From the IMG/VR virus record IMGVR_UViG_3300037672_000202, positions 1-41,461 of that record: a stretch of DNA of 41,461 nucleotides. One strand, written 5' to 3'. The translations under genes and the position numbers were made by a program. A model generated the notes under the pieces. The model ran no database searches and had not been told where the DNA came from. It saw only the letters and a program-made list of their open reading frames with translations. Numbering within the stretch: the first letter of the stretch is position 1; each line of letters begins with the position of its first letter. The stretch comes from a virus. This document shows, in pieces, positions 17,300-41,461 of this stretch.

Positions 17300-18895
17300 A
17301 TGCCTGCTATTATATCCGAACAGTTTAGGATTCTGAACGCCGAGACTTTTGTAAAAAGTTTTGTTGGAGTAGGATCTACTGTTAACAAATATTATGCGTT
17401 CATGGGATTACCCAATTCCGTTGAATCGAAGGCGGGCGGTACTGCCACATGGGCTACAAATACGCCAGCACCGTTGGATGGATTTGAGGAAGAGTATTCC
17501 ATCAAAGAATCTATCATTGCGATGAAAAAGGTGACTGATAAAGATGTTCGCAGACTTGTCAGAAAAGTTTCATGGGTGGCGGGTACTACATATGAAATGT
17601 ATAGACATGATTATAACATCTATAATCTGACACCTATTACTAGTCAAGGTAGTCTGTACGATGCAAATTACTACATAGTGAACGAAGACCTGAAAGTTTA
17701 CATCTGTCTACAAAATGGATCAGACCCAGAGAACCCGAAGGGTAGGCCTTCATATGACCAACCCACATTTGTTGACCTTGAGCCAAGAGCAGCTGGCACT
17801 AGTGGCGATGGTTATGTTTGGAAATATCTTTACACAATTAAACCTAGTGAAATTGTTAAATTTGACTCTATTGAATACATACCAGTGCCCGAAGACTGGG
17901 GCAAACAAGGCGAGACTGTCGCAACAAAAGCTAATTCTATAGATGGAAAGATTGAAGTGGTTGTGGTTGATAATAGAGGTTCTAACTACCAACCGATCTC
18001 AACATCCTTTGCAAATGTTCCCATTCTGGGAGATGGGGCAGGAGGAAAGGCTACTATTACGATTGACTCTTTCGGAAAAGTATCTGAAGTATTTGTTACT
18101 GATGGAGGAGAAGGATACACTCATGGATCCATCCAGTTTTTCCCAGGCGCTCCAGGCAGTCAGTCTGGCGGAGTACTTGCTAACCTTACCAATACAGGTA
18201 TCGGAACGACATCGGTAGCAGACTTTAGTGTCATCATTCCTCCGAAGGGTGGTCATGGACATGACATCTACAGGGAACTTGGTGCGTACAGAGCACTACT
18301 CTATTCTAGATTTGAAACTCTAGAAACTAACCCCGATATCATTGAGGGTAATGATTTTGCTAGGGTTGGACTAATAAAGAATCCCACCGTATTTGGCAGT
18401 AGCACAGAATTGCTAGACACTGCAATGGTGAGTGGATTAAAAGCTTTGAAACTTGGTGGTATGACTACTGCAACAACCTATGCTGTTGACTCTGAAATCA
18501 CACAGACGGTTGGTGTTGGTTCTACTGCGATTGGATATGTTGCTTCTTGGGATAAAGTTACTGGAGTGTTGAAGTATTATCAACCAATGGGTCTTGCTTC
18601 TAGTGAAACTGGATACAAGATTGTTCCATTTACTTCTATTCCTGATACAGGGTACGGTGTAACGATTAATGGATCATCAGTAAACGGTTCGTTGTTGTCT
18701 GTTGACACCTCATATAACGGTGTCAGTACCTCAATAAATAATAAGACCTACCAATTAGGTATGAGTTTTACTTCTGGTATTTCATCAGCGGAATTCAATA
18801 CCAAATCAGGTGAAATTATCTATATTGATAATCGGACTGCGATTCCTAGATCTGCAAGTCAGAAGGAAGACATCAAGATAGTACTGGAGTTCTAA
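17300..18895 (+). CDS. 8: Baseplate wedge subunit, T4 gp8-like, 531 aa
   Basis: Two stretches match T4 gp8 as I recall it: GDGYVWKYLYTI at residues about 170-181 (gp8 has GDGYVWEYLFEI), and the C-terminus GEIIYIDNRTAIPRS...EDIKIVLEF (gp8 ends GEMIYMENRPPI...EEINILFTF). In T4, gp8 is a dimeric wedge protein of the baseplate joining gp6, gp7 and gp10. This protein is about 200 residues longer than the 334 of T4 gp8. The extra middle part has an inserted GGEGY hairpin segment (residues about 255-300) and the motif GGHGHDIYRELGAYR (about 316-330), which I associate with marine T4-like gp8 homologues. ATG start with poor Shine-Dalgarno; the next gene starts 6 bases after the stop, so the two are probably co-translated. 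Confidence 0.75.
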   Translation: MPAIISEQFRILNAETFVKSFVGVGSTVNKYYAFMGLPNSVESKAGGTATWATNTPAPLDGFEEEYSIKESIIAMKKVTDKDVRRLVRKVSWVAGTTYEMYRHDYNIYNLTPITSQGSLYDANYYIVNEDLKVYICLQNGSDPENPKGRPSYDQPTFVDLEPRAAGTSGDGYVWKYLYTIKPSEIVKFDSIEYIPVPEDWGKQGETVATKANSIDGKIEVVVVDNRGSNYQPISTSFANVPILGDGAGGKATITIDSFGKVSEVFVTDGGEGYTHGSIQFFPGAPGSQSGGVLANLTNTGIGTTSVADFSVIIPPKGGHGHDIYRELGAYRALLYSRFETLETNPDIIEGNDFARVGLIKNPTVFGSSTELLDTAMVSGLKALKLGGMTTATTYAVDSEITQTVGVGSTAIGYVASWDKVTGVLKYYQPMGLASSETGYKIVPFTSIPDTGYGVTINGSSVNGSLLSVDTSYNGVSTSINNKTYQLGMSFTSGISSAEFNTKSGEIIYIDNRTAIPRSASQKEDIKIVLEF

Positions 18896-28786: not shown

Positions 28787-31700
28787 TTGACAGTATTTGT
28801 CTACGACAATACGAAGATAGATTTATTCACTACATTTGACGGTGGTAATATCACCGTCGCGTCAGTGGAGAATATTGACTATGGCGACATAAATCAACAT
28901 GTAGAACCCGAAAGAGACGAGAATTTCTTCTTTGTAAATGACCACGGACTCATCAACGATACATCAGATGTGCTACCGTTTGGTCCAATAAATGTAGTAG
29001 ACGGAAGAGACGAGTTTGGTAGATCAAGAACTCAGTGGATTCCAGAGAACGCAAATACAGTCCTATTCGATGTTAATGATTCTGCACTAGTATCTGCAGC
29101 AGTGCCTTGGGTTGGTACTGGTACTGTTCATGAATTTGGTAACGGTCTCGAAAGAGTCGTCATACCAGATCTTGGAGCAGCGGGAGCTGTCATCTTCATC
29201 CCATCTGGGACAGCAGAAGAATCTATATCTAGAGGAAATTACATAGGTGTTGGTGCGATTGCCAAGTCAGGGCTGTCTGCAAACGACCTAGACCAAGTTT
29301 ATTCTTATAATGGTAGTGGCTCTGTATCCGTAACTGGAGAACAACAGACTCCATACAACGAAGCCTACTTACCAATTATCAAAAACGCCTTTAGGGCGAA
29401 GGGTGGAGATACCCGACTATTTGATGTTGAGAAAGTCATATACAACTACGCCAGATCAGAGTCTGACGTATTCGAGAAAGAAGATAACGGCACAATTACA
29501 GTTAGAGAAGGAGCATCCTTCGATGATCTCAATGTCACATTTGACGAGGTTATCACAGATTCTCTTGCGAAGGAGAGATCATTCTCTGACGAAGATCAGG
29601 TAGCATTCGAGAGTTACGGAGGTATATTAGATACACCTACATCTGCTGAAGATTACGGTGTAATATTACAAAAATTACAAGGTGGGATCTTCTTCGACGA
29701 GTATCAGTCAACCTTTGTCAGGGGCCACGATCTATTTGTCAGGGGATACCACGGTTCTGGTACGTTCAAGAAAGAAGGAATTGCTGCAGAAGGATCACTC
29801 TTTGCATACTCTGGATCTGGTACAGGAACATTCTCTGGAACCAACTTCTTCAGTCAGGCTCCACAAAGTACAATCTTCGGTCTTGAGGGTGAAGTCGCCA
29901 TATCTGGTAGTGCAGATGAGGCATTTGTCCCTGCAACTGTTGATAACACAGTTCTCTTTGATATCTCTGGAACTGGTGCTGAAAGTAGAGTCTTACTTCC
30001 CGATACTAAAAAGGCACTTGTTAGACTTACTGGATCTGTTTCTGGTATCAAACTTGTTAAACAGGGAGACGAAGGAACAGTCCTCTTCAATACTTCTGGT
30101 TCGGCAACAGATGTTGTACTTGTCAAGGACTACGAGAATACAAATCTGTTTGATTTCTCTGGAGGGATGCAACAGGGTACACCTGTTTACACTCCTTCTT
30201 GGATATCGCCTCTTGGAGATCAAAAAACAGAAGAGCTCGATTGGGGTCTTATTACTGCTACTCCAACTCAATCTTACGAAGATTGGGGACCAATCAATAC
30301 AAACGACGAGACTATTCCCAAGTCGGCAGAAAACTGGGGATTCCTACTTCCAGACTTCAACTACGTTCAGATTGGTGGTCAACACTACCCCAACAGAGAA
30401 GTTACATTCTCTCTTGGAGAAACTTCACTTTCCAGACAGACTGTTGGATTTACAGGAACAGCAACCTTCTTACTTTCAGAAGATCTCGACGTTGCATCTG
30501 CAATTCAATACGAGAGTTCTGGAAAATCTGGTATTGCTACACACAATGCTGGTATATTCATATCTGGAGAACTATGGTTATCACAGGCTCCACAACATAC
30601 AGTATTTGGTGAAGAAGGTCAATTTACAATTAATGGTACTGGTAACGAGTCTATTACACCAGTCATACCAGAAGGATCTGGTACATTATTCAGTATCGGT
30701 GGTGCAGTTGAATCCAGTACCAAGGCATACTTACAGGGAGACTACTCATATCTTGGTGGTACTGCTGGTCAGGTATTTGCACCACATATCTCTGGTGTTG
30801 GTACAGGAACCTTCAGTCAGGGTAGAGAAGAGAATCAGACATACGCAAGAGTTATACAACACAAAGAAAACGAGTTTGGCGGAACATTATTCGTCAATGG
30901 TGCGGCATCTGGTGAGAAGAATACAGATTCTTACAATGAGTCTTCTATACTCTTTGGTACTGAGAACGAAAACTACGGTGGTATTCTTGGAGACCCAAGC
31001 TTTGGATTCGGACTCAACATACTTGGACAGGCTTCTGGTACTGAAACATTTGATGACGAACTCAACAGATACTCTCAAGACGTTCTCTTTAGTAACGGTG
31101 GTCTCACATACGACCAAGGATCTGGTGGTGTTGAGATATTACCTTCCTTCGATAAGACTAGTCAATATGGTATCGGATTTGATGACAACACTGTGTCTCA
31201 AGACTACGGTGAACTTGGCATCAGTTCTGTTGGCGGACCTGCATACGATCAATTCTTATATCCACACTACACTGGTTTCAATTCACAAGAAATCAATCAG
31301 GGTTACGAAGATGCTGGATTCATTACAGAGCCAGCACCAACAGAATCTCGTTTCCCATACGGAAAACTTGTATTCCCACAGATCTCGGACACGATTACTC
31401 AGTTCATCCCAAGTTGGGTTGGTTCTGGTTCACTTATCGTATCTGGTACTGGAGTCGAGAGAGTTGCAGTTGCAAGTAGTACAACATCTCTATTCGACTT
31501 CGTTAGTGGTGCAGAAGAAAGATACATTGCTCAGACTCCAGAAGGAACTGTTCTATTCGATATCTACGATACTGCAAACGAGAGTGTCACCAAAGACTTT
31601 GTTGGATCTGGAAATATCACCCTTCAACAAACTCAAGCTGTTGGGTTTACAACCTACAGAAGGATTATCGTTCCACCCGCTTCTGGTATTACTACATTCT

Positions 31701-33448
31701 CTGGAGCATCTATCGAGAGATCGAGCTTCGATCCTCCAGAAGGAACTTACCTACACATCTTTGGTGGTGGATATACAGATCTCAGTGCAGCCTTTGCTTC
31801 TCAATCTCAGAAGGCAACTCTACGACTCAGTGGAGAACTCAATCACCCACAAATCGACTTCACACCTCATTATGGTATCGAAAGGAACATTGGTATCGAA
31901 ACAGGTTTTACCTTCTTGCCTGGCGGTACTGGAGGAGAGTACGGAGATCCTGGCATTGTTACCACAAGGTTCGTACCCAAATATCCTACCTCTGGTATTA
32001 TCAGTCTTAACGGTAAGGCAATCGGTCGTACCAACGCTCCTATTCTTACTGATGGTACGATCTACATTCTCGGTATTGGTACTGAGGCCAATGGTCAAAT
32101 TGGTGATGATGGAATTGGCGATCTTAACGGTGTTGAGTTTGGTGCAAAAGAGAGATTTATCCCTGCAACAGAATTTGGTGCTGGATCTCTCCTATTCGAC
32201 TTCCAGACATCTGGTGCAGAAGCAAGACCAATTTCTGTATTTGGATACTATGGAGACGACAAAGATCCAGGCACATCTGGTGGTATCACTATTCGTCAGG
32301 AAGGTGGTATTCTCACAATCGAGAGAACATCTGTTCAAGCATCTGGCGGCGGCACATTTACTTACAGTGGTTCTGGTCAAGACGAAGCAACATCATCCGT
32401 CGAAGTTGGTTCTGGTTCTCTATTCGCAGTTGGTGGTATTGCAGAAGCAACAGCTGCTGCAGAACTTGTCGCTGGAACTTCTATATTCAACGGAACGGCA
32501 GAAGAATCCTTCTCTGCTCAGACTCCAGAAGATACTGCAACAATTACACTGTCTGGAGAAAGTGTTGCCTTCCGTCAACGCCAGTTCAACGGATCTGGAA
32601 CTCTTACACTCAGCAACGATCAAAGAGTTGTTACTGGTATCAGACTGTCTCCAACAGGTTCTGGTACATTCAGTATTCTTGGTGGTGCTGCAGAGGCAAC
32701 CGTCGAACCATCTGCTGCAAGATCAATTCTTACAGATATCACAGGTGTTGCAGAAACAAGATACTTCCAAGTATTCCAAGACTTCGTTCCATCTGGTACA
32801 TTCACATTATCTGGAGAACTTACACATCCAGACATCGATTACACTCCAGCTTTCACTGGTTCTGGTATTGTTACATTCTCTGGAAGTGCAAGAGAACAAG
32901 GATTCTTCAGAGAAATTGGTGTTGGTACTGCTACCTTCTCTGGTTCATCTATTGTCAGATTTACAGCGGACGATCTGGAAGGCACAGTCCTCTTCGATCT
33001 CAAGGGTGCATCTGCACTTACCGAAATCAATCAGGTTTACGGATACTATGGAGACGACAGAGATCCAGGCACATCTGGCATTACTACAATCTCTGGTGTT
33101 GGTGCTACAAAACAAATCCAAGTATTTGGATACTACGGAGACGACAAAGATCCAGGCACATCTGGAACATTTACATTCTCCAATACACCTCTTGTACACC
33201 CATTTGTCGATTTCACACCTTCGATTGGTATTGGTGTTGCAGTTCTTTACCAGACAAGTGGATCAGCTGTCGAATCCTTTACCTTTGCTGGGTACGAGAG
33301 TCAAGGAAGATTCAAAGGACTTGCTGGATCTAAGGAATCTCTCGCTCGGGCAACTTACGTTGGAATTGGTCAAGTTAACACCTTTGGTAATGCCGAAACA
33401 GAGTATGCGGTCATCGAAGAAGGTAGAACTTATGTTGTCATAATCTAA
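28787..33448 (+). CDS. Repeat-rich long fibre/structural protein, 1553 aa
   Basis: TTG start chosen because no other start lies after the upstream stop and a G-rich ribosome site precedes it. The first 550 residues hold 'DYG/DWGxI' units (IDYGDI, EDYGVI, LDWGLI, EDWGPI, ENWGFL). The rest is built from 20-25-residue beta repeats of the form 'GSGTxxFSGxAxEs' and 'EGTVLFDxSGxAxE', about two dozen copies. It also has three 'L-x-HPxxDFTP' units and three 'GYYGDDKDPGTSG' units. No Cys-rich or enzyme motif is seen. The regular strand-turn pattern suggests an elongated beta-solenoid or fibre shaft (inference). It lies between a terminator and a late promoter. Its +1 frame is open over 29682-33443, which is unusual. 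Confidence 0.85.
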   Translation: MTVFVYDNTKIDLFTTFDGGNITVASVENIDYGDINQHVEPERDENFFFVNDHGLINDTSDVLPFGPINVVDGRDEFGRSRTQWIPENANTVLFDVNDSALVSAAVPWVGTGTVHEFGNGLERVVIPDLGAAGAVIFIPSGTAEESISRGNYIGVGAIAKSGLSANDLDQVYSYNGSGSVSVTGEQQTPYNEAYLPIIKNAFRAKGGDTRLFDVEKVIYNYARSESDVFEKEDNGTITVREGASFDDLNVTFDEVITDSLAKERSFSDEDQVAFESYGGILDTPTSAEDYGVILQKLQGGIFFDEYQSTFVRGHDLFVRGYHGSGTFKKEGIAAEGSLFAYSGSGTGTFSGTNFFSQAPQSTIFGLEGEVAISGSADEAFVPATVDNTVLFDISGTGAESRVLLPDTKKALVRLTGSVSGIKLVKQGDEGTVLFNTSGSATDVVLVKDYENTNLFDFSGGMQQGTPVYTPSWISPLGDQKTEELDWGLITATPTQSYEDWGPINTNDETIPKSAENWGFLLPDFNYVQIGGQHYPNREVTFSLGETSLSRQTVGFTGTATFLLSEDLDVASAIQYESSGKSGIATHNAGIFISGELWLSQAPQHTVFGEEGQFTINGTGNESITPVIPEGSGTLFSIGGAVESSTKAYLQGDYSYLGGTAGQVFAPHISGVGTGTFSQGREENQTYARVIQHKENEFGGTLFVNGAASGEKNTDSYNESSILFGTENENYGGILGDPSFGFGLNILGQASGTETFDDELNRYSQDVLFSNGGLTYDQGSGGVEILPSFDKTSQYGIGFDDNTVSQDYGELGISSVGGPAYDQFLYPHYTGFNSQEINQGYEDAGFITEPAPTESRFPYGKLVFPQISDTITQFIPSWVGSGSLIVSGTGVERVAVASSTTSLFDFVSGAEERYIAQTPEGTVLFDIYDTANESVTKDFVGSGNITLQQTQAVGFTTYRRIIVPPASGITTFSGASIERSSFDPPEGTYLHIFGGGYTDLSAAFASQSQKATLRLSGELNHPQIDFTPHYGIERNIGIETGFTFLPGGTGGEYGDPGIVTTRFVPKYPTSGIISLNGKAIGRTNAPILTDGTIYILGIGTEANGQIGDDGIGDLNGVEFGAKERFIPATEFGAGSLLFDFQTSGAEARPISVFGYYGDDKDPGTSGGITIRQEGGILTIERTSVQASGGGTFTYSGSGQDEATSSVEVGSGSLFAVGGIAEATAAAELVAGTSIFNGTAEESFSAQTPEDTATITLSGESVAFRQRQFNGSGTLTLSNDQRVVTGIRLSPTGSGTFSILGGAAEATVEPSAARSILTDITGVAETRYFQVFQDFVPSGTFTLSGELTHPDIDYTPAFTGSGIVTFSGSAREQGFFREIGVGTATFSGSSIVRFTADDLEGTVLFDLKGASALTEINQVYGYYGDDRDPGTSGITTISGVGATKQIQVFGYYGDDKDPGTSGTFTFSNTPLVHPFVDFTPSIGIGVAVLYQTSGSAVESFTFAGYESQGRFKGLAGSKESLARATYVGIGQVNTFGNAETEYAVIEEGRTYVVII
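32238..33166 (+). repeat. Three near-identical GYYGDDKDPGTSG repeats
   Basis: Copies at 32238-32280, 33035-33078 and 33122-33166 within the 1553-residue gene. They are almost identical even in nucleotides, with only wobble changes, unlike most repeats here. The Asp-rich loop (GDDKDPG) could bind a metal ion such as calcium (inference). Confidence 0.7.
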
Positions 33449-33452
33449 ATCC

Positions 33453-33460
33453 TATAAATA
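33453..33460 (+). promoter_or_regulatory. T4-type late promoter (TATAAATA)
   Basis: Exact TATAAATA four bases after the stop of the 1553-residue gene and 33 bases before the next ATG. It would drive the two small tail genes and probably the fibre and Cys-rich genes, since no terminator is seen until 41365. Confidence 0.75.
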
Positions 33461-33493: not shown

Positions 33494-33952
33494 ATGACCA
33501 AGCAGGTTCAATTTAGAAAAGGAACTACAGCTGAACACTTTAACTTTACTGGAGCTCTAGCCGAGATAACAGTAGACACAGATAAGAATACGGCTGTTGT
33601 ACACGACGGGGCTACTCCTGGCGGATTTGAACTTGCTAGAGCAAGATGGACGTTTGTATCTGGAACTTATCCATTGAGTACAAACCAAAAATATACTGTT
33701 GATTCCCAAAATAGTCCTGATGGATTTGATCTTGCCATGCCAACTCCTCGTGCGGTTGGTGACTGGGTATGGATCGAAGATTTTGCTAACTTCTTTAGCA
33801 TTCATCCTATTAACGTTACATCAATATACAGTTTTGAAAACGGACATTTAGTTAAAGAATCTTCTCCTTTCATCATGGACGTTTCGGGTGCGTCAGTGAC
33901 TTTTATTTGGAATGGATCCCTTTGGAAAGTATTCAACAATAGGGCTAGTTAA
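33494..33952 (+). CDS. Tail protein with Mtd-type N-terminal domain, 152 aa
   Basis: Residues about 4-50 (QVQFRKGTTAEHFNFTGALAE, TVDTDKNTAVVHDG) match the N-terminal domain of phage major tropism determinants and many fibre proteins. That domain attaches the receptor-binding protein to the tail. The remainder (residues about 52-152) has 'TFVSGTYPLSTNQKYTVDS' and 'VTFIWNGSLWKVFNN', a small beta domain that often closes marine phage fibres. No C-type-lectin variable domain is present, so this is an adaptor-like short version and not a full tropism determinant. A late promoter lies upstream. The ribosome site is weak. The next ATG is 2 bases after the stop. Confidence 0.75.
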   Translation: MTKQVQFRKGTTAEHFNFTGALAEITVDTDKNTAVVHDGATPGGFELARARWTFVSGTYPLSTNQKYTVDSQNSPDGFDLAMPTPRAVGDWVWIEDFANFFSIHPINVTSIYSFENGHLVKESSPFIMDVSGASVTFIWNGSLWKVFNNRAS

Positions 33953-33954
33953 AA

Positions 33955-34359
33955 ATGGCACTTACGCTAAGTAATTCTATTTCTGGACAGTTTGACCCCT
34001 CCGAATCGTCGGGTTTTTTCGTGTATGCACTCAGAAGAGATGCAGAAGGGATGCTACTTTTTTCTAAAGTTAGTGCTGCTTCAACAGAATTAGGAGAATT
34101 CTATCGTAACGATGGAACTGCTATACCAGAATTCGGTGATGGTTTAGATTATGGTACTTACGATGTTGGTGTTGGTAAAACATCAGTTATTCGTAGTGAT
34201 ATCGCTACTGAGAAAAAACTCATAGATGATCCGAATGATAAATACCAACAGATTCGCTTTGATCGAAGAAACTTATACTATTACATAGACGATGATGGCT
34301 TTTTCGTTATAAGATTTAATGGTCCTAACTATGCTTATGAAAGCATCGGACCAACTTAA
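33955..34359 (+). CDS. Conserved-looking small tail protein, 134 aa, function unknown
   Basis: Starts 2 bases after the preceding stop, probably by coupling. Notable stretches are SGFFVYALRRDAEGMLLFSKV (residues about 19-39), YRNDGTAIPEFGDGLDYGTYD and a Tyr/Asp-rich end (RRNLYYYIDDDGFFVIRF). No signal peptide, membrane segment or enzyme motif. Its place between an Mtd-type protein and a large fibre suggests a connector or fibre accessory protein. I do not recognise a characterised family. Confidence 0.7.
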   Translation: MALTLSNSISGQFDPSESSGFFVYALRRDAEGMLLFSKVSAASTELGEFYRNDGTAIPEFGDGLDYGTYDVGVGKTSVIRSDIATEKKLIDDPNDKYQQIRFDRRNLYYYIDDDGFFVIRFNGPNYAYESIGPT

Positions 34360-34399: not shown

Positions 34400-37300
34400 A
34401 TGGCTGAGTTTAGACTTGGAAGAGTAAAATTCAACTGGACAGGTGATTGGACTACATCCAAAGCCTATTTGATTGACGATATCGCCAAGTTTGGTGGTAA
34501 CACTTATGTGGCGGTTATAAACCACACGTCAACAGGAAGCATCAGTGACTTTTACGCTAACGACCTTTCCAAATGGAACGTCCATATTGAAGGTCTAGAA
34601 CAAAAAGGACAGTGGGCTGCTGGAGTTTACTATCGTATCAACGATCTAGTAAAATACGGTAACGTTGTCTACAGAGTAACCACTGCTCACACATCAGAAG
34701 GAACCTTCATCGATAAGACGAAAGTTTCAGAATATGTAAAAGGATTCCAAAACGAAGGTGAGTGGGATCTAACTACCGAATATCAATCAGGTGACGTTGT
34801 AAACTACAACGGTTCATCCTATGTTGCGTTATCCACATCAACTGCTGGATTCCAACCTCCACAGTATTTGGGTGTTTCTACAGACCCAGCTGCAAGATGG
34901 AGCATCTTATCTGATGGTCTTGCTGGTGCGGCTTCAACATACCAAGAAGGTACTTACTTCAGAGGAGACTTAGTACAGTATGGTGGTAATATCTACCGTC
35001 ATAAAATCGGTATTACAACTAACGTTTCTCCATTACAGGTTGGTCTAGGATCAATCTTCCCACAATCTTACAACGGTACACAAGTATGGGATTTACTTGT
35101 TAAGGGATTTAATTTCAAAGGCGGTTTCTCCACTACCTTTGACTACCATCCAGGCCATGTTGCAAGATATGGTTCAGATTCTTATGTTTCTGTTGGTAAC
35201 TCTCACAAGAATGTTCTTCCTACTGCTGGTATTGGAACCTTCTGGGAAGTACTTGCATCAGGAGATTCATCCGCTGCTCTTAATACCAAAGGTGACGTAC
35301 TAAGTTACAACTCAGGTAATGTAAGAATCGGTATTGGTTCTACAGGTTATGCACTTGCAGTTCAGTCAAATGGAATGCCAGGCTACGAGATTGTAGGTAA
35401 CCAAACAAGAATTTACTACGTTGACTCCGAAGACGGATTAGACGGAAACAATGGTCTTGCACCTAACTTGGCGTTTAAGACTATTAAATCGGCTTGCCAA
35501 TCTGCTCGTCCTACAACAGATGTCACCAATATGGTGTATACCGCTTCCACTGGTGTGGCAACGGTTACTGCGCCTGGTCACGGTCTGTTAAACACTGGTA
35601 CGTTCGTTCAGTTACAAGACATCGAGTTTGAGTGTCTATCTGGAGGTAACGTATTCACCGTCTTGGGTATGACCTACAACGGTGCGGTTGGTCTTGCAAC
35701 GATCACTGCTATTGGTCTTGGTGGTGCTCCTGAAATTGGAATTGGTGCTACTGTTAGAATCAGAAACTTAAGTGTTCAATACACAGGTTCTGCACAGTTT
35801 GCTCACACCTTCAAAACCGCTGAGGCAAACGCCATCCAATCTGGTGGTGACTACGCTCACACATTCAACAGTTGCGCTGCAAACGGCGTTTCAATTGTTG
35901 GTGGATCTTCAGTAACACCTACAGGTGCTACATACGATCCTTCAAATGGTAACTTCACTATGACCCTTACTGGTCATAGTTTATCAACTTCTGATAAAGT
36001 TACCATTGGGGATAACGCATTTACGTTCACCTGTACGATGAACAACAATGCCACTCAGAAGACATATCCTAGACCTGGCAAAGACCCTGCAAGAGGACAA
36101 CAGTTATCAATTACAGGTACAACAACTGATACATTCACTGTAAACGTTGGATCTTCTCCAATCATCAATCATCAACCAACTGCGGTTTCTTATAACCAAG
36201 CAACTGGTGACATGGTTTGTACAATTGGTGCTCACTCATTAACAGTTGGTACTTCTGTAAAACTAGCGGAAGATGGTTTAACATTCCGTTGTTCAATGGA
36301 CGGATACACAACTGATCACGCTTATCCTCGTGCTGTTGCTGGAGATGGAAACCCAGACCCTGCATACAACACTGCTCTAAACATTACTTCTGTTACTACC
36401 AACACAATTACAATCAACGTTGGTACTGCATCTGATAACCAGACAATCACTGGTAAGTTCCCTGCTGTACATACTCAAGGTTCTTACGAATTCTTGGTTC
36501 AAGGTGTTCCTGACTCTAACTCAATCACTCTTAACGTAGGTGTTTCAACTACTGATTACCTCTATGTTTCTGGTGGTACTGCGTTCGTTGGTCTAACAAC
36601 AACCAAGTATCCTGATAAGGTCTCTAAGTCCTACTATGAGGTTCTTCAAGTTGATAACTCTGACTCATTCAAAGTTAACGTTGGTATCTCAACTATCAAC
36701 CACACATACGTTGAAGGCGGTAAGGTAACAGACCTAACACCTGCTATCTTGAAACTGTCTGCGTCTCAGTTCTACGAACAGTTACCAGTTACAGTTCCTC
36801 CTTTCACTTCGATTGTTGGTAACGCACTTAGAGGTTCACAGGTTCTTCCTAAAGAGGGAACATCTGATGACTCTACAACTCCTAACAACAGGAGTCACAT
36901 GTTTAAGATGTCTGATGCGACAACCATTCAGGCAATCTCCATGAAAGGAATGGAAGGATTCTACTATGATCCTAACGCTCCTTTAGAGTTAGACAATGCA
37001 AACTTAAGAACTGGTATCGGTACAACCGCTGCTGGTGTGTTCATCTCCTTGAACCCAGATTCACCTATCGATAACAAGTCACCTTACGTTAAGGACTGTA
37101 CTTGTTTCTCTGACCCTGCAACAGAAAGTGGCAGATTCGGTGGTGGTGGTGTTGGTGTATTCATCGATGGTGGTGTACACGACACAGGTGCAAAATCAAT
37201 GGTGTTCGATGCGTTTACGCACGTTGCATCTGACGGTGCTGGTTACATCCTTGATAAGGGTGCAATCGCTGAAATCGTTTCCTGTTTCACATACTACGCT

Positions 37301-38839
37301 AAGTGGGGTTACTACTCAGGTGGTGGATCAAGAATCAGGGGTGTTGGTGGAAACAACTCTTACGGAGACTACGGTGTTATCTCATCTGGTTTCTCAACTG
37401 ATGAAGTTCCGAGAACTGCAAAAGTCTTCGGTGACATGATGGAAGTTCAAGGTACAACTAAGTCTGGAACAGTGGCATTAGGTGCTACAATGTTCGGTCA
37501 GACATCTAAGGCAACTGGATGGTTCTTGAACGATCAGATCTCTGCTGATAAGATTTACTTCAAGTATCAGACTGGATACGGTAACGCTGGAATCGGAACC
37601 ACTGGTTTCGTAGACAGTGAGATCATCTGGTTCGGTGCTGGTGCAGAACAGAGTTCTGGTGTCGGTTCAATCACGGTCGGTGCAGCTGCATCTTCCACAA
37701 CTGGACAGAAAGGTACAATTCTAGAAGTTGACCAAACTTCTGCTACTCTATTAATCGGTGACGCTATCGGATTCCAGACATCACTATATGGTGCTGACGA
37801 TAGGTTCTACATTATTAACACAATTACGGGCGTGTCCGTTGCATCCACTTTCTATGAGTGGCAAGCAGGATCAGTCGCTGGTGTACAAACGGTATTCAGT
37901 AACCGTGCAACTCTGACGATCTCTCCTGAGAAGTCAAATGGAACATGGGATACTCGACACCTCGGTACTAATAATAGTTCCGATATTAAAATCAGAACAT
38001 TGTTCTCACAGGCAAGACTAACAGGACATGACTTCCTCGCAGTTGGTACTGGTAACAAGACTGAGACTGGATATCCAAACGTCAACTTGGCGAACGTTAT
38101 CCAAGGTCAAGAAACTAACGTGTTCGGACCTGGTAAGGTGTTCTTCGTATCTACCGACCAAGGTGGTAACTTCCGAGTTGGAGACTTCTTCTCCGTTGAC
38201 CAGTTGACTGGTCGTGCTACATTGGATGCTTCTGCGTTCAACCTTTCTGGTTTGACAGAATTGAGACTTGGTGCGATTGGTGGTCAGGTCGGTGAGGCGA
38301 TCAACGAATTCTCATCTGATGAGACACTCGCTGGTAACTCAAACACTGCTTGTCCAACTGAATTCGCAACTAAAGGTTTCTTAACCCGTGCGAAGATGGG
38401 AACCAAGGCAATGACACCTCCAGTTGGTACAACAGGTCAGAGACCTGGCGGTATCGACGATGAGTTCAACACTGGTTGCTTAAGATTCAACACTACCTTG
38501 GGTGCTCTTGAGTACTACAACGGTACTGCATGGATTCAGCCTGGTGTACCTCAGTACTCCACAGTTGCCTCAAGTGGATCTGTTGTTGCTGGAACTAAGT
38601 ACTTTGTTAACACAGGTGGCGGCCAGGTCACATTGACCTTGCCTGCAACACCTAACTTGGGTGATGAGGTCACTTTCATGGACGTTGCGAAGACGTTTGA
38701 TTCTAACGCACTAGTTTGTGCAAGAAACGGTAAGAACATCCAAGGTGATGCTTCTGACCTGACTGTTCAAACAGAAAGTGCCGCATTTACACTTATCTTC
38801 TCAGGTGATACATACGGTTGGAGAATCTTCTCCATCTAA
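34400..38839 (+). CDS. Multidomain tail fibre, 1479 aa, with sugar-binding-like repeats and beta-helix
   Basis: GGAG lies 8 bases before the ATG. Residues about 10-290 hold five repeats of the form 'KGxWxxxxxYxxGDxVxYxGxxYxxxxxHT', similar in pattern to CBM5/12 chitin/cellulose-binding modules. Residues about 336-368 (YYVDSEDGLDGNNG, AFKTIKSACQSARP) are a typical entry to a right-handed beta-helix. This continues only at about residue 780 (FYEQLPVTVPPFTSIVGNALRG). Between them lie two HTF repeats and two Cys/YPR repeats like those in the 3000-residue protein. The helix runs to about 1010. The C-terminal region (about 1280-1479) has FNTTLGALEYYNGTAWIQ and a beta tip domain. It is likely a host-binding fibre or spike, followed directly by the Cys-rich adhesin-like genes. 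Confidence 0.85.
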   Translation: MAEFRLGRVKFNWTGDWTTSKAYLIDDIAKFGGNTYVAVINHTSTGSISDFYANDLSKWNVHIEGLEQKGQWAAGVYYRINDLVKYGNVVYRVTTAHTSEGTFIDKTKVSEYVKGFQNEGEWDLTTEYQSGDVVNYNGSSYVALSTSTAGFQPPQYLGVSTDPAARWSILSDGLAGAASTYQEGTYFRGDLVQYGGNIYRHKIGITTNVSPLQVGLGSIFPQSYNGTQVWDLLVKGFNFKGGFSTTFDYHPGHVARYGSDSYVSVGNSHKNVLPTAGIGTFWEVLASGDSSAALNTKGDVLSYNSGNVRIGIGSTGYALAVQSNGMPGYEIVGNQTRIYYVDSEDGLDGNNGLAPNLAFKTIKSACQSARPTTDVTNMVYTASTGVATVTAPGHGLLNTGTFVQLQDIEFECLSGGNVFTVLGMTYNGAVGLATITAIGLGGAPEIGIGATVRIRNLSVQYTGSAQFAHTFKTAEANAIQSGGDYAHTFNSCAANGVSIVGGSSVTPTGATYDPSNGNFTMTLTGHSLSTSDKVTIGDNAFTFTCTMNNNATQKTYPRPGKDPARGQQLSITGTTTDTFTVNVGSSPIINHQPTAVSYNQATGDMVCTIGAHSLTVGTSVKLAEDGLTFRCSMDGYTTDHAYPRAVAGDGNPDPAYNTALNITSVTTNTITINVGTASDNQTITGKFPAVHTQGSYEFLVQGVPDSNSITLNVGVSTTDYLYVSGGTAFVGLTTTKYPDKVSKSYYEVLQVDNSDSFKVNVGISTINHTYVEGGKVTDLTPAILKLSASQFYEQLPVTVPPFTSIVGNALRGSQVLPKEGTSDDSTTPNNRSHMFKMSDATTIQAISMKGMEGFYYDPNAPLELDNANLRTGIGTTAAGVFISLNPDSPIDNKSPYVKDCTCFSDPATESGRFGGGGVGVFIDGGVHDTGAKSMVFDAFTHVASDGAGYILDKGAIAEIVSCFTYYAKWGYYSGGGSRIRGVGGNNSYGDYGVISSGFSTDEVPRTAKVFGDMMEVQGTTKSGTVALGATMFGQTSKATGWFLNDQISADKIYFKYQTGYGNAGIGTTGFVDSEIIWFGAGAEQSSGVGSITVGAAASSTTGQKGTILEVDQTSATLLIGDAIGFQTSLYGADDRFYIINTITGVSVASTFYEWQAGSVAGVQTVFSNRATLTISPEKSNGTWDTRHLGTNNSSDIKIRTLFSQARLTGHDFLAVGTGNKTETGYPNVNLANVIQGQETNVFGPGKVFFVSTDQGGNFRVGDFFSVDQLTGRATLDASAFNLSGLTELRLGAIGGQVGEAINEFSSDETLAGNSNTACPTEFATKGFLTRAKMGTKAMTPPVGTTGQRPGGIDDEFNTGCLRFNTTLGALEYYNGTAWIQPGVPQYSTVASSGSVVAGTKYFVNTGGGQVTLTLPATPNLGDEVTFMDVAKTFDSNALVCARNGKNIQGDASDLTVQTESAAFTLIFSGDTYGWRIFSI
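35515..36740 (+). repeat. Shared HTF + YPR module inserted in the beta-helix
   Basis: About 408 codons within the fibre gene. The order is two HTF units (about 35793-35890), a 'GGSSVTPTGATYDPSNG' linker, then two Cys/YPR cores (near 36028 and 36286). The 3000-residue gene shows the same order: HTF units, 'GGGSLTPTNADYTPTTG', YPR cores. The flanks join naturally as one beta-helix start, so this looks like a mobile protein module. Confidence 0.6.
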
Positions 38840-38890
38840 TGCTTGATTATCTACATTATTACTTTTATTCAACCCCTTTAAGGATCGTAA

Positions 38891-39676
38891 ATGGCCAACT
38901 ATAGATCATATAAAAAAGTAAGATCCGACCAAATCGCTTCGGGAACCATCCCAATCTCGAAGCTGGCGGCGGGTGGCACCCCTGACTATTGTGTCAAGAT
39001 GTTCTATGGACATCCATGTTATTGCACACCTGGCTGTTGCTGTAACTGGACTGTCCCAGCAGGTGTAGGTAAACTAACCCTAGAAATCTGGGGTGCTGGT
39101 GGTAACGGACATGGTGCATGTTCATGTAACAGATGTCATCACTATCAAGGTGCTGCTGGAGGTGCATACAATACTAAAACAATCAGTACCGCTGCTGGTT
39201 GCTCATATTCTGTATGTGCTGGTGGTGTTTACAGGTGCTGTTCAAGAGAGTGTAACGGATGTGATGGATGTTCTTCATACGTTAACGGTTACAACTTAAG
39301 TGGCTTCTGTGCCATTGGTGGTGCAAGAGGTTGTGCAAACCCCGACTGGTCAATTAGATGTACATCTAGACACTGGTGCTGTGCATCGCCTGGAACATGG
39401 GGTGGAGACTTCGCAATGGCTCCTCACCAAAAAGGTTGGTCAGGTCACTGGAACTGTCACTGTACTGGTGCGGTTACAAGTGAAGAAGGATCAGGAGCTC
39501 CGTTCCTATCAGCTGGAACCGAGGTGCAGCTGGAACAATGTTGGATGAGATGTGGTTGTTGGACTGCTCCTTATGCGACAGGTGGTCAAGGTGCTCAGAC
39601 TACATACTGCGGAAGTAGTTGTTGTGGTCAGGGCGGCCAAGGCGGCTCTGGTGTTGTACGAATTACCTACGTCTAG
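38891..39676 (+). CDS. Cys/Gly-rich adhesin-like protein, copy 1, 261 aa
   Basis: First of three tandem paralogues. AAGGA lies before the ATG. The N-terminus YRSYKKVRSDQIASGTIPISKL has the 'DQI-GTI--SKL' pattern common at fibre-tip protein starts. Residues about 54-75 (WTVPAGVGKLTLEIWGAGG) begin a glycine-rich domain of the type found in phage adhesins. The end GQGGQGGSGVVRITYV closes the domain. By hand count it has 29 Cys, in clusters such as HPCYCTPGCCCNW, CSCNRCHH, YRCCSRECNGCDGC and WMRCGCW. No signal peptide. Location after a large fibre suggests a receptor-binding tip, as gp38-type glycine-rich adhesins do in T-even phages (inference). The Cys could form disulfides outside the cell or bind metal. 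Confidence 0.8.
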   Translation: MANYRSYKKVRSDQIASGTIPISKLAAGGTPDYCVKMFYGHPCYCTPGCCCNWTVPAGVGKLTLEIWGAGGNGHGACSCNRCHHYQGAAGGAYNTKTISTAAGCSYSVCAGGVYRCCSRECNGCDGCSSYVNGYNLSGFCAIGGARGCANPDWSIRCTSRHWCCASPGTWGGDFAMAPHQKGWSGHWNCHCTGAVTSEEGSGAPFLSAGTEVQLEQCWMRCGCWTAPYATGGQGAQTTYCGSSCCGQGGQGGSGVVRITYV

Positions 39677-39688
39677 GATTAAACAAAA

Positions 39689-40483
39689 ATGGCAAGTTAT
39701 TCATCATACAAAAAAATCAGTGGAGATTCCTTAGAGGACAATAGCCTTGACGCTGGAAGTTTCAGTGGATCTCCTAACGAAAGTTACGGCGTAAAATGGG
39801 TATTCGGTACAAACTGCCGTTGTTCACCAGGCTGTTGCTGTAACTGGTCAGCCCCTACTGGGGTTGGAAACATGTGGATTCAGATGTGGGGTGCTGGAGG
39901 AAATGGTACTGGTGCATGTTCATGTAACAGATGTCAGCACTATCATGGTGCTTCTGGAGGATACTACAACTCCAAAATGATTACAACCAATGGTGGTTGT
40001 TCTTACAGTATTTGTGCGGCTGGTGTTTATCCATGTCTCTCTAGAGAGTGTTATGGATGTACAGGTTGTTCATCTTATGTAAATGGATACAACTTATCTA
40101 ACTTCTGTGCCAAAGGTGGAAACCGTGGAAACGCTAACCCAAGTTGGTCAACTGCTTGTAACGCACAAAATTGCTGTTGTTTAGGTCCTACTTCAAACAA
40201 CGGAGACTTCGGAATGGGCAACCAGACCAGTACTTGGTCTTCATCAAGACATGATACTTATAGAGGTTGGTGTCACTGTTACCACTATGGTCATAGACCT
40301 ACTTCTGCACCGTTGATTGGTACACAAGTTACTCAATCTATTAGAGAATGTTGGATTCGTTGTGGTTGCTGGATCGTACCTTACGGTCACGGCGGACAGA
40401 GCGCTATGACTACATATTGTGGTGGGTGCTGCGGACAAGGCGGTACTGGCGGTGGCGGTCTCGTCAAAATTACATACTTCTAA
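39689..40483 (+). CDS. Cys/Gly-rich adhesin-like protein, copy 2, 264 aa
   Basis: Second paralogue, 12 bases after the first, with a weak ribosome site. Same plan: SYSSYKKISGDSLEDNSLDAG, then WSAPTGVGNMWIQMWGAGG, the Cys clusters, SSYVNGYNLSNFCAKGG, and GQGGTGGGGLVKITYF at the end. Hand count 27 Cys. Relative to the flanking copies it lacks Cys at three places (DYC/NWC becomes SYG, YRCC becomes YPCL, RGC becomes RGN) and gains one (NCCC). It is the most diverged copy in the N-terminal segment and in the variable region about residues 165-215. Likely role as for copy 1; the three may be alternative or co-assembled tips. Confidence 0.8.
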   Translation: MASYSSYKKISGDSLEDNSLDAGSFSGSPNESYGVKWVFGTNCRCSPGCCCNWSAPTGVGNMWIQMWGAGGNGTGACSCNRCQHYHGASGGYYNSKMITTNGGCSYSICAAGVYPCLSRECYGCTGCSSYVNGYNLSNFCAKGGNRGNANPSWSTACNAQNCCCLGPTSNNGDFGMGNQTSTWSSSRHDTYRGWCHCYHYGHRPTSAPLIGTQVTQSIRECWIRCGCWIVPYGHGGQSAMTTYCGGCCGQGGTGGGGLVKITYF

Positions 40484-40492
40484 GGGGAAGAA

Positions 40493-41284
40493 ATGGCTAC
40501 TTACTCAAGTTATAAACAAATTAATGCCTCGACATTTGAGGATGGAAGTATTCCAGCATCAAAGGTTCAAGCGGGTTCTTTCTCAAACTGGTGTGTAAAA
40601 TGGGTCTATGGACATCCATGTTACTGTACACCTGGCTGTTGTTGCCTTTGGACAGTTCCAACGGGTGTAACACGAGCTACATTTGAGATATGGGGATCTG
40701 GAGGTAACGGACACGGTGCATGTTCATGTAACAGATGTCAAAACTGGCATGGTGCTGGAGGAGGGTACTATAATACTAAAACTATTAGTACTAAGTCTGG
40801 TTGCCAATACAGTGTCTGTGCTGCTGGTGTTTATAGATGTTGTTCTAGAGAGTGTACAGGATGTTGCGGATGTAACTCCTATGTAAATGGATATAACCTA
40901 TCTAACTTCTGTGCCTTAGGTGGTGTTAGAGGTTGTGCAACTGGTGACTGGTCTGCAAACTGTTATTCTGAATTCCATACTTGCTGTATGCAACCTGGCG
41001 CTCACGGAGGAGACTTCGGAATGGGCAACCACGGTGGTAACTCATACAGACCTGACGGATTCAACTGTCACTGTTACTATAACGAAGGTAGACCAACAGG
41101 TGCTCCATTCATCGGAACTCTTGGTGTTTCATATGGACAAAGACAGTGTTGGATGAGATGTGGTTGTTGGACAGTTCCCTATGGACACGGCGGACAAGGT
41201 GCAAACAGTAACTACTGTGGAAGTAGTTGTTGCGGACAGGGCGGTCAAGGTGGAGGAGGACTCGTTAAAATCACCTACGTCTAA
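40493..41284 (+). CDS. Cys/Gly-rich adhesin-like protein, copy 3, 263 aa
   Basis: Third paralogue, 9 bases after the second, with a good AAGGGGA ribosome site. It is closer to copy 1 than to copy 2 in the conserved parts (YGHPCYCTPGCCC, WTVPTGVTRATFEIWGSGG, YRCCSREC, CGSSCCGQGGQGG). Hand count 30 Cys, with an extra one in TGCCGC. The region about residues 145-215, between RGC and QCWMRCGCW, varies most among the copies and is a candidate receptor-contacting surface. A transcription terminator follows about 80 bases later. Role inferred as for copy 1. Confidence 0.8.
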   Translation: MATYSSYKQINASTFEDGSIPASKVQAGSFSNWCVKWVYGHPCYCTPGCCCLWTVPTGVTRATFEIWGSGGNGHGACSCNRCQNWHGAGGGYYNTKTISTKSGCQYSVCAAGVYRCCSRECTGCCGCNSYVNGYNLSNFCALGGVRGCATGDWSANCYSEFHTCCMQPGAHGGDFGMGNHGGNSYRPDGFNCHCYYNEGRPTGAPFIGTLGVSYGQRQCWMRCGCWTVPYGHGGQGANSNYCGSSCCGQGGQGGGGLVKITYV

Positions 41285-41285
41285 G

Positions 41286-41366
41286 ATTCTTTGCAGACAT
41301 TGTAAGAGAACTGCTACAAATAAAATACGTTGTTTAGGGATGTGCGTTGCAGATTCCGACTACTAG
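41286..41366 (+). CDS. Candidate Cys micro-peptide in the gap after copy 3
   Basis: In the gap after copy 3, in another frame (start of reading at the ATT at 41286, TAG at 41364-41366), the sequence encodes LCRHCKRTATNKIRC followed by LGMCVADSDY: Cys spacing C-x2-C-x9-C-x3-C, like a tiny zinc-binding finger. It fills the gap almost exactly to the terminator stem. No ATG, GTG or TTG start and no nearby ribosome site is seen, so it would need an ATT start or a frameshift from copy 3. It could be a decayed gene end. Weak but worth checking. Confidence 0.3.
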   Translation: MLCRHCKRTATNKIRCLGMCVADSDY

Positions 41367-41389
41367 AGGGTCTATGACCCTCTTTTTTT
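41365..41389 (+). terminator. Rho-independent terminator
   Basis: AGAGGGTC (41365-41372), loop TAT, GACCCTCT (41376-41383), then a run of T to 41389. A perfect 8-bp stem with a T tract. It ends the fibre/adhesin transcript. Confidence 0.9.
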
Positions 41390-41396
41390 ATAAATA
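41389..41396 (+). promoter_or_regulatory. T4-type late promoter (TATAAATA)
   Basis: Exact TATAAATA directly abutting the T tract of the terminator and 32 bases before the next ATG. Terminator and promoter together form a compact boundary between two late units. Confidence 0.8.
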
Positions 41397-41428
41397 GTGC
41401 CGAAGGAGTAAACCCGAAGAAATCCACA

Positions 41429-41461
41429 ATGGCAACAAAAATTATTTCACATAACTGGAAG
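41429..41461 (+). CDS. Start of next late gene (3' end outside window)
   Basis: ATG with 11 codons to the window edge, reading MATKIISHNWK. A late promoter lies 32 bases upstream. AAGGAG at 41403-41408 is rather far (about 20 bases) from the ATG. The short N-terminus is of the kind that opens tail/baseplate proteins in these phages, but 11 residues do not allow a family call. Confidence 0.55.
   Translation, partial: MATKIISHNWK

Follow-up and report, generated by a model that had tools for sequence, protein, structure and literature searches.

Three Cysteine-Rich Genes after a Cyanophage Tail Fibre Gene: Probable Fibre-Tip Adhesins of the Pam3 gp24 Kind

Introduction

The gp38-type tip adhesins of T-even relatives are glycine-rich proteins encoded after the fibre gene, and their hallmark, as in phage S16, is a tip built as a polyglycine-helix sandwich and attached to the long tail fibre. 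Here, a 41,461-nucleotide stretch of viral DNA was analysed (IMG/VR record IMGVR_UViG_3300037672_000202, positions 1 to 41,461; referred to as the window), in which three neighbouring cysteine-rich genes, copies A, B and C, follow a tail fibre gene. The arrangement is like that of the gp38 type of phage S16 in that the gene of a glycine-rich protein lies after the fibre gene. Because the predicted fold matches gp24 of cyanophage Pam3 and a tail assembly chaperone gene comes next, the three proteins most likely represent a cysteine-rich variant, with several subunits, of the gp24 kind of tail-fibre tip adhesin.

In the available text of the Pam3 paper (PMC9608196), gp24 is described as trimeric, being made up of a helical domain for docking at the N-terminus, a tumour necrosis factor (TNF)-like domain and a glycine-rich domain whose six loops end in a variable distal tip. 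The head is taken as the receptor binder, and the N-terminal domain docks directly on the baseplate. Mass spectrometry of Pam3 virions detected gp24 but not its chaperone gp25, and the paper notes a resemblance between gp24 and S16 gp38. A precedent for cysteine-enriched virion proteins is found in Agrobacterium phage Milano, for which the text available (PMC10811340) reports disulfide networks in the virion. The structural proteins of Milano contain 2.1% cysteine, with disulfides in the sheath, baseplate and fibre attachment, compared with 10–11% cysteine in a predicted virion tip head here.

The window represents part of the genome of a T4-like cyanophage, a marine cyanobacterial virus near Synechococcus phage S-SSM7 (Kyanoviridae, Lipsvirus), which showed 87.5% identity to positions 17,300–41,461 over 99% of the length. 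The S-SSM7 orthologues of the three copies are SSSM7_114 to 116, labelled hypothetical in the record. Related loci are cited by L number; the source of L012 is a 230,739-base IMG/VR contig identical to the window across 8,571 compared bases.

Composition and Variability of the Three Proteins

The fibre gene is separated from copy A by 51 bases, copy A from copy B by 12 bases and copy B from copy C by 9 bases.

38,891–39,676, + strand: copy A, 261 residues, 29 cysteines; Pfam Gly_rich_2 at 31.7 bits (cut-off 24.3); phrog_4205
39,689–40,483, + strand: copy B, 264 residues, 27 cysteines; phrog_4205; no Pfam match
40,493–41,284, + strand: copy C, 263 residues, 30 cysteines; phrog_4205; no Pfam match; the copy modelled with AlphaFold2
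40,916–41,143, + strand: variable segment of copy C, residues 142–217, from the entropy profile
34,400–38,839, + strand: tail fibre gene, 1479 residues; phrog_9851 tail fiber; CBM_5_12 stretches; S-SSM7 orthologue annotated tail fiber

A sequence-only reading of the window had described three adjacent genes of 261–264 codons with 27–30 cysteines, and this was borne out, as was their paralogy, with copies A and B being 64% and 61% identical to copy C, respectively. Cysteine accounts for 10–11% of the three proteins, compared with 0–1.45% of 13 other counted open reading frames (ORFs) in the window. The excess is 10- to 11-fold over a baseline of 1.03%, taken from non-family + strand ORFs of at least 200 residues in the loci examined (binomial P at this rate 5.9 × 10−21 for A, 1.1 × 10−18 for B and 5.9 × 10−22 for C). 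Glycine makes up 17.0–18.6% of A, B and C; from residue 68 to the last eight residues, the content is 19.5–23.3% for glycine and 11.6–12.7% for cysteine. The earlier mention of glycine-rich ends was loosely worded, as the first 33 residues hold only 2 glycines; the glycine-rich stretches are loops at about residues 68–92 and 231–256 of the modelled fold.

In the window lineage (188 distinct sequences), residues 142–217 of copy C were the most variable after the N-terminal 33 residues, in agreement with a segment previously placed at about 145–215. Going by its sequence variability, this segment perhaps forms receptor-facing loops. Cysteine was the least variable residue class (mean of 0.30 bits within copies A, B and C; tryptophan 0.31, glycine 0.52), with 19 columns of invariant cysteine and 3 more in which cysteine was present in 97–99% of the sequences.

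Predicted Fold and Likely Function

The AlphaFold2 model of copy C, built with 110 aligned sequences, had a mean predicted local distance difference test (pLDDT) score of 80.3 and a predicted template modelling (pTM) score of 0.79. The top match in the PDB was Pam3 gp24 (Foldseek E-value 2.6 × 10−6, template modelling (TM)-score 0.49). The comparison of the model with gp24 by VIA gave a Z-score of 16.9 and a root-mean-square deviation of 3.1 over 191 aligned residues, with 16% identity; apart from Pam3, the Bxb1 tail tip and ALK/LTK, the VIA rows had a Z-score of 4.5 or less. A model of a P-SSM2-type relative (L170) had the same top match (Z-score 13.2, 199 aligned residues), although the two models are not fully independent because the 62-row alignment for L170 contained the three window copies. 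When the predicted viral structures were searched, the first matches were the S-CAM3 and P-SSM2 relatives, behind which came numerous entries whose names refer to a glycine-rich domain, along with phage tail proteins and some proteins of giant viruses. A sequence-profile search of the PDB gave no match with a 9-row profile and a single chance match (E-value 5.3) with a 110-row profile. For the comparison with the gp38 type of S16, no PDB chain was matched by sequence at an E-value of 1 or less; the S16 entry was absent among the fold matches listed for copy C, and this absence proves nothing.

The likeness to Pam3 gp24 and gp25 (PDB 7ypx, 7yfw) comprises the predicted TNF-like and glycine-rich head, the cyanophage source and, in the window lineage, an adjoining tail assembly chaperone gene (PF16778). 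The differences include the identity of about 16% and the presence of two or three genes here versus one in Pam3. Cysteine and disulfide are absent from the available text of the Pam3 paper, versus the 10–11% cysteine here. The 125-residue glycine-rich domain of Pam3 gp24 is given as 39% glycine, versus 19.5–23.3% here, where our cut is looser and includes strands (PMC9608196). The Pfam family Gly_rich_2 (PF21722) passed its cut-off in copy A and in the third copies of S-CAM1 and S-CAM3; there was no match at an E-value of 1 for copies B and C and none for the P-SSM2 proteins, and the other S-CAM copies were below the cut-off or had no match.

The gene after copy C begins in the window and continues beyond it.

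41,429–41,461, + strand: first 33 bases of the tail assembly chaperone gene (Phage_tail_APC); remainder beyond the window, L012:8539-9324

The protein matched Phage_tail_APC (PF16778) at an E-value of 1.9 × 10−10 as well as several tail fibre assembly PHROGs, and has phrog_9740 in common with its positional counterpart in S-CAM1 and S-CAM3. The fold match and the chaperone gene thus agree with the earlier proposal that genes for a set of glycine-rich adhesins follow the fibre gene. In the model that we propose, A, B and C would be the distal receptor-binding heads of a cyanomyovirus tail fibre, of which the gene directly upstream is the probable carrier. As in Pam3 gp24, each head is predicted to combine a TNF-like jelly roll with glycine-rich loops, and its folding would probably, by analogy with Pam3, be assisted by the chaperone encoded next. 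The three copies would be fixed, distinct subunits, present on the fibre either as an A:B:C heterotrimer or as separate homotrimers.

Several observations weigh against the fibre-tip reading. The genes in the chaperone place in S-CAM1, S-CAM3 and P-SSM2 had no PF16778 match, and the P-SSM2 gene between its two cysteine-rich genes had no PHROG match at an E-value of 0.01. Loops L1, L2 and L6 are conserved here, whereas the distal loop ends vary in Pam3 according to the text available. Virion proteomics of phages with these genes was not found in the open-licence PMC texts consulted; the available text of PMC3037559 names S-SM1, S-PM2 and Syn9. This gap, together with the fact that the relatives in annotated phage records are all labelled hypothetical, would also suit a non-virion protein, for example one that assists folding or acts on the host. 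We consider that explanation highly improbable, as the PDB fold search ranks phage fibre and tail-tip proteins first and the genes sit between the fibre gene and the chaperone gene. A structure match to a non-virion enzyme was looked for and did not emerge, the best match of copy C being Pam3 gp24.

Proteins of this fold could also belong to the virion but occupy a site other than the distal end of this fibre, the baseplate being one example. The direct docking of the N-terminal domain of Pam3 gp24 and the presence of other structural genes upstream are in line with such a position. Moreover, no long N-terminal helix, the element that serves docking and trimerisation in the gp24 type and by which attachment could be judged, was predicted in copy C, in which the first 30 residues were of low confidence; in the P-SSM2-type relative a helix was predicted at residues 5–34. 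A site away from the fibre tip nonetheless appears unlikely in view of the frequent adjacency of the family to this fibre type (37 of 62 loci, see below) and of a cysteine-poor cousin encoded directly after a related fibre in Pelagibacter phage Mosig.

Family Spread and Cysteine-Poor Cousins

With a 13-member profile (E-value 1 × 10−5), the family comprised 589 ORFs in 218 of 221 sources (the window and the loci), with three copies in 157 sources, two in 57 and one in 4. The cysteine content of the 578 complete ORFs of more than 200 residues was 6.05% to 12.6% (median of 10.2%), a range that is biased because most family ORFs were found with family seeds and the seed patterns contain cysteine at least in part. 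Two of the searches for relatives kept the best 80 of 178 and the best 80 of 208, respectively. Several loci are near-copies of one virus; L010–L012 equal the window where compared. Cysteine-rich relatives occupy the same slot in other cyanophages, including the S-CAM and P-SSM2 lineages. The function of phrog_4205 and phrog_35878 is listed as unknown, and among the open-licence PMC texts listed for cysteine-rich cyanophage proteins, judged by title and the start of the abstract, no report of these proteins was found.

A fibre census was started from the fibre N-terminus and covered the best 80 of at least 580 candidates, ranked by likeness to the window fibre. Sixty-two loci were judgeable, the others being 13 fibres that run off the contig, 3 loci with less than 1.5 kb left and 2 in which no fibre ORF was found. 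Three family genes were present in 27 of the 62 loci, two in 10, a different cysteine-rich gene in 2 and none in 23; family genes therefore follow the fibre gene in 37 of the 62. The 25 loci without the family included 3 with tandem triples of other proteins, 6 with two interleaved pairs and 16 with no paralogues.

Cysteine-poor proteins with the Gly_rich_2 domain were identified right after a related fibre in Mosig (4 cysteines in 516 residues) and in contigs L283 (4 in 552) and L292 (2 in 532), unlike the cysteine-rich copy A. In Synechococcus phage Syn9, the fibre genes are followed by the cysteine-poor, glycine-rich gp36 (8 cysteines in 316 residues), gp38 (2 in 266) and gp39 (7 in 392), with a Gly_rich_2 match in gp38 and gp39 but not in gp36. 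The Syn9 proteins are a point against the proposed role of cysteine at the tip, and high cysteine is therefore no general need for the host genus Synechococcus. No cysteine-rich gene was found after the short fibre version of Synechococcus phage S-BM3. Given these cousins and S-BM3, high cysteine characterises certain lineages within a shared tip scaffold and does not extend to all phages of picocyanobacteria.

At least two family loci (L318 and L319) were in metagenome-assembled genome contigs labelled Flavobacteriales and Actinomycetota, and are perhaps viral contigs binned with bacterial genomes. A 250-residue ORF with 27 cysteines (L224:3317-4066), below the family threshold and with no Pfam match, is perhaps a divergent member. 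Cysteine-rich upstream ORFs in L005, L057, L061 and L078 were discounted as a further cysteine-rich fibre end, being in the wrong frame and overlapped by an open frame that holds no cysteine.

Copy Number and History

Three copies were present in 76 of 77 IMG/VR loci of the window lineage, the third being cut by the contig end in L016; the exception was L074, with two copies, the second of which runs off the contig. The S-CAM lineage has three-copy sets and the P-SSM2-type loci have two copies. A tree of 155 rows separated the lineages, with Shimodaira–Hasegawa-like approximate likelihood ratio test (SH-aLRT) values of 100 for the window, 93 for the S-CAM and 95 for the P-SSM2 lineage, and within each lineage the copies grouped mainly by position. 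This was a quick tree drawn with a midpoint root and containing some long branches, in which the deep members L082, L083 and L086 were not sorted cleanly by position. Because the copy number is constant and the tree groups copies by position, the copies are taken to be old and stable within each lineage; their tripling looks, from the same tree, either separate in the window and S-CAM lineages or homogenised early. In 179 comparisons of copies from the same genome, none showed a near-identical tract, defined as 75 nucleotides with an identity of at least 93%. Recent gene conversion was accordingly discounted at that threshold, and the earlier suggestion that the copies are diversifying by duplication was not supported, given the constant triplets, the grouping by position and the lack of such tracts.

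The constant triplets in the window lineage and the three-copy sets in the S-CAM lineage raise the question of whether A, B and C form one heterotrimeric head rather than three homotrimers. Consistent with a heterotrimer, tandem triples of other proteins follow the same fibre type in 3 of the 25 family-less census loci. In addition, the tip of the last loop (residues 241–249 of copy C) has states, such as GRCC, GSSCC, ERCC and GSGHC, that are often common to the copies of one genome; copies A and C agree completely there in 35 of 63 distinct loci, a count that none of 35 other nine-residue segments reached. However, the co-change of A and C at this site (12 edges versus 6.7 expected) is confounded by branch length and was equally frequent in other segments. 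Pam3 gp24 is a homotrimer in the text available (PMC9608196), no paralogue pair occupies the slot in 16 of the 25 family-less loci, and the two copies of the P-SSM2-type loci are ill-suited to an obligatory three-subunit tip, a point that also counts against the overall model. We regard the heterotrimer as somewhat less likely than not.

The other paralogue triples in tandem right after the same fibre type were located at L268:12424-14099, L303:5946-7715 and L281:5386-7907. One tandem triple was C1q-like, below the Pfam cut-off (17.9 versus 23.7 bits). Three-copy tip sets may have arisen repeatedly.

Role of the Cysteines

Metal-thiolate proteins of the metallothionein kind have dense CC, CxC and CxxC spacing. 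In A, B and C, the spacings CC, CxC, CxxC and CxxxC were not clearly above chance for the cysteine count (smallest of 12 p-values 0.033, for CxC in copy B). Provided that the proteins are adhesins, we lean slightly towards disulfides formed after lysis over bound metal. The cysteines would then cross-link loops or subunits by disulfides formed once the virion reaches oxygenated seawater. Bonds of cysteine, whether disulfide or metal, may replace part of the glycine lattice.

The evidence is not all in favour of disulfides. An odd number of cysteines is frequent (34 of 62 copy A sequences have 29), which means that pairing within a chain cannot account for every cysteine. The paired loss of cysteines was weak (p = 7 × 10−4 for the two best pairs, uncorrected, with 16 variable columns), and was rejected as a disulfide map after allowing for the many pairs. 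At the Cys246 column, 56 of 188 sequences have histidine instead, a substitution more in keeping with a metal ligand. The odd counts and this one exchange lean towards metal or inter-chain bonds.

The same tip adhesins could thus bind metal ions such as zinc or iron through cysteine, with histidine, and such a metal-thiolate tip may engage host metal-uptake receptors. Beyond the odd counts and the histidine column, metal binding would fit with proteins made in a reducing cytoplasm, and the L012 record (230.7 kb) has two glutaredoxin matches (L315, L316) and no thioredoxin or DsbA match. The text available of PMC11705849 puts forward the presence of iron in the fibres of marine phages as a proposal. 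However, besides the unremarkable vicinal spacings, heavy exchange between cysteine and histidine was confined to one column, and the Pfam search of A, B and C returned no metal-binding family, leaving metal binding the less probable role, at perhaps a minority chance. No sulfhydryl oxidase match was found in the L012 record, from which nothing follows, as the control genomes were likewise without a match.

A Second Cysteine-Rich Head

A second cysteine-rich head, with 9–10% cysteine, occupies the same slot in AG-345-P14 (282 residues, 26 cysteines), L272 and L276 (280 residues, 25 cysteines; identical proteins) and L201 (232 residues, 24 cysteines).

L201:6665-7363: second cysteine-rich head
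L272:13995-14834 and L276:13995-14834: second cysteine-rich head
L089:5117-5962: second cysteine-rich head

The profile of the first family did not match this head. Within the second kind, the proteins of L201 and L272 have 50% identity along 202 residues. A search for relatives of the second head gave two full matches, L305 and L306 (on the same contigs as L276 and L272), and eight partial matches in the linker region. Both kinds of head are present in the one locus of L201, where the two cysteine-rich proteins had no significant mutual similarity (best E-value 6.9). By eye, the start of the L201 second-head protein resembles the starts of the P-SSM2-type proteins, and the second head and the first family may be remotely homologous. 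It is conceivable, if rather doubtful, that enrichment to about 10% cysteine arose at least twice in the same fibre-tip slot, in heads with no detectable sequence similarity. If true, the tip position itself would select for cysteine, with different subunits being assembled into a tip in the reducing cell, and this tip then being cured by oxidation, or taking up metal, upon release.

Neighbouring Genes and Candidate Regulatory Sites

Additional features of the locus are listed below.

33,494–33,952, + strand: upstream neighbour, a 152-residue tail protein with an Mtd_N domain, from domain and PHROG matches and the S-SSM7 annotation
33,955–34,359, + strand: upstream neighbour, a conserved 134-residue protein (T4-GC 295)
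33,453–33,460, + strand: TATAAATA, exact motif, 41 nucleotides before 33,494
41,389–41,396, + strand: TATAAATA, exact motif, the next exact match, 40 nucleotides before the chaperone gene
41,365–41,383, + strand: terminator-like hairpin and T run after copy C, from a consensus match; 3 such sites in 38,700–41,461 versus 2.1 expected

We take TATAAATA to be a T4-late-promoter-like motif. Its four exact occurrences in the window are all on the + strand, each 29–51 bases before a gene start, and their number in 41 kb is unremarkable, being reached in 19 of 100 shuffles. The site at 33,453 precedes the genes of the 152- and 134-residue proteins, the tail fibre and copies A, B and C. In the window lineage, the motif was present within 250 nucleotides after copy C in 73 of 74 loci, and within 150 bases before copy A in 2 of 76.

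Further upstream, a large ORF at 28,787–33,448 has zero cysteines (counting from 28,856) and YGYYGDDKDPGTSG-like repeated stretches. The S-SSM7 record has an annotated ORF, SSSM7_117 (L001:29726-30055), that overlaps copy C in a different frame and is probably not a gene. After the chaperone gene, L012:9387-10046 (SSSM7_119 in S-SSM7, 'minor coat protein') had a DUF6445 match and a 2-oxoglutarate-Fe(II) (2OG-Fe(II)) oxygenase match below the cut-off.

Discussion

The analysis provides a likely function and fold for a widespread family whose PHROGs (phrog_4205 and phrog_35878) and annotated relatives are listed as unknown or hypothetical, and so points to a component through which marine cyanophages are likely to contact their hosts. 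A chemical question also arises, namely how a reducing cytoplasm can produce a protein in which about one residue in nine is cysteine, and how that protein then functions in oxygenated seawater. As there are cultured phages with the cysteine-rich genes (S-SSM7, P-SSM2 and S-CAM1) and with the cysteine-poor cousins (Syn9 and Mosig), this question is directly testable. The high cysteine content may lock the tip together or hold metal.

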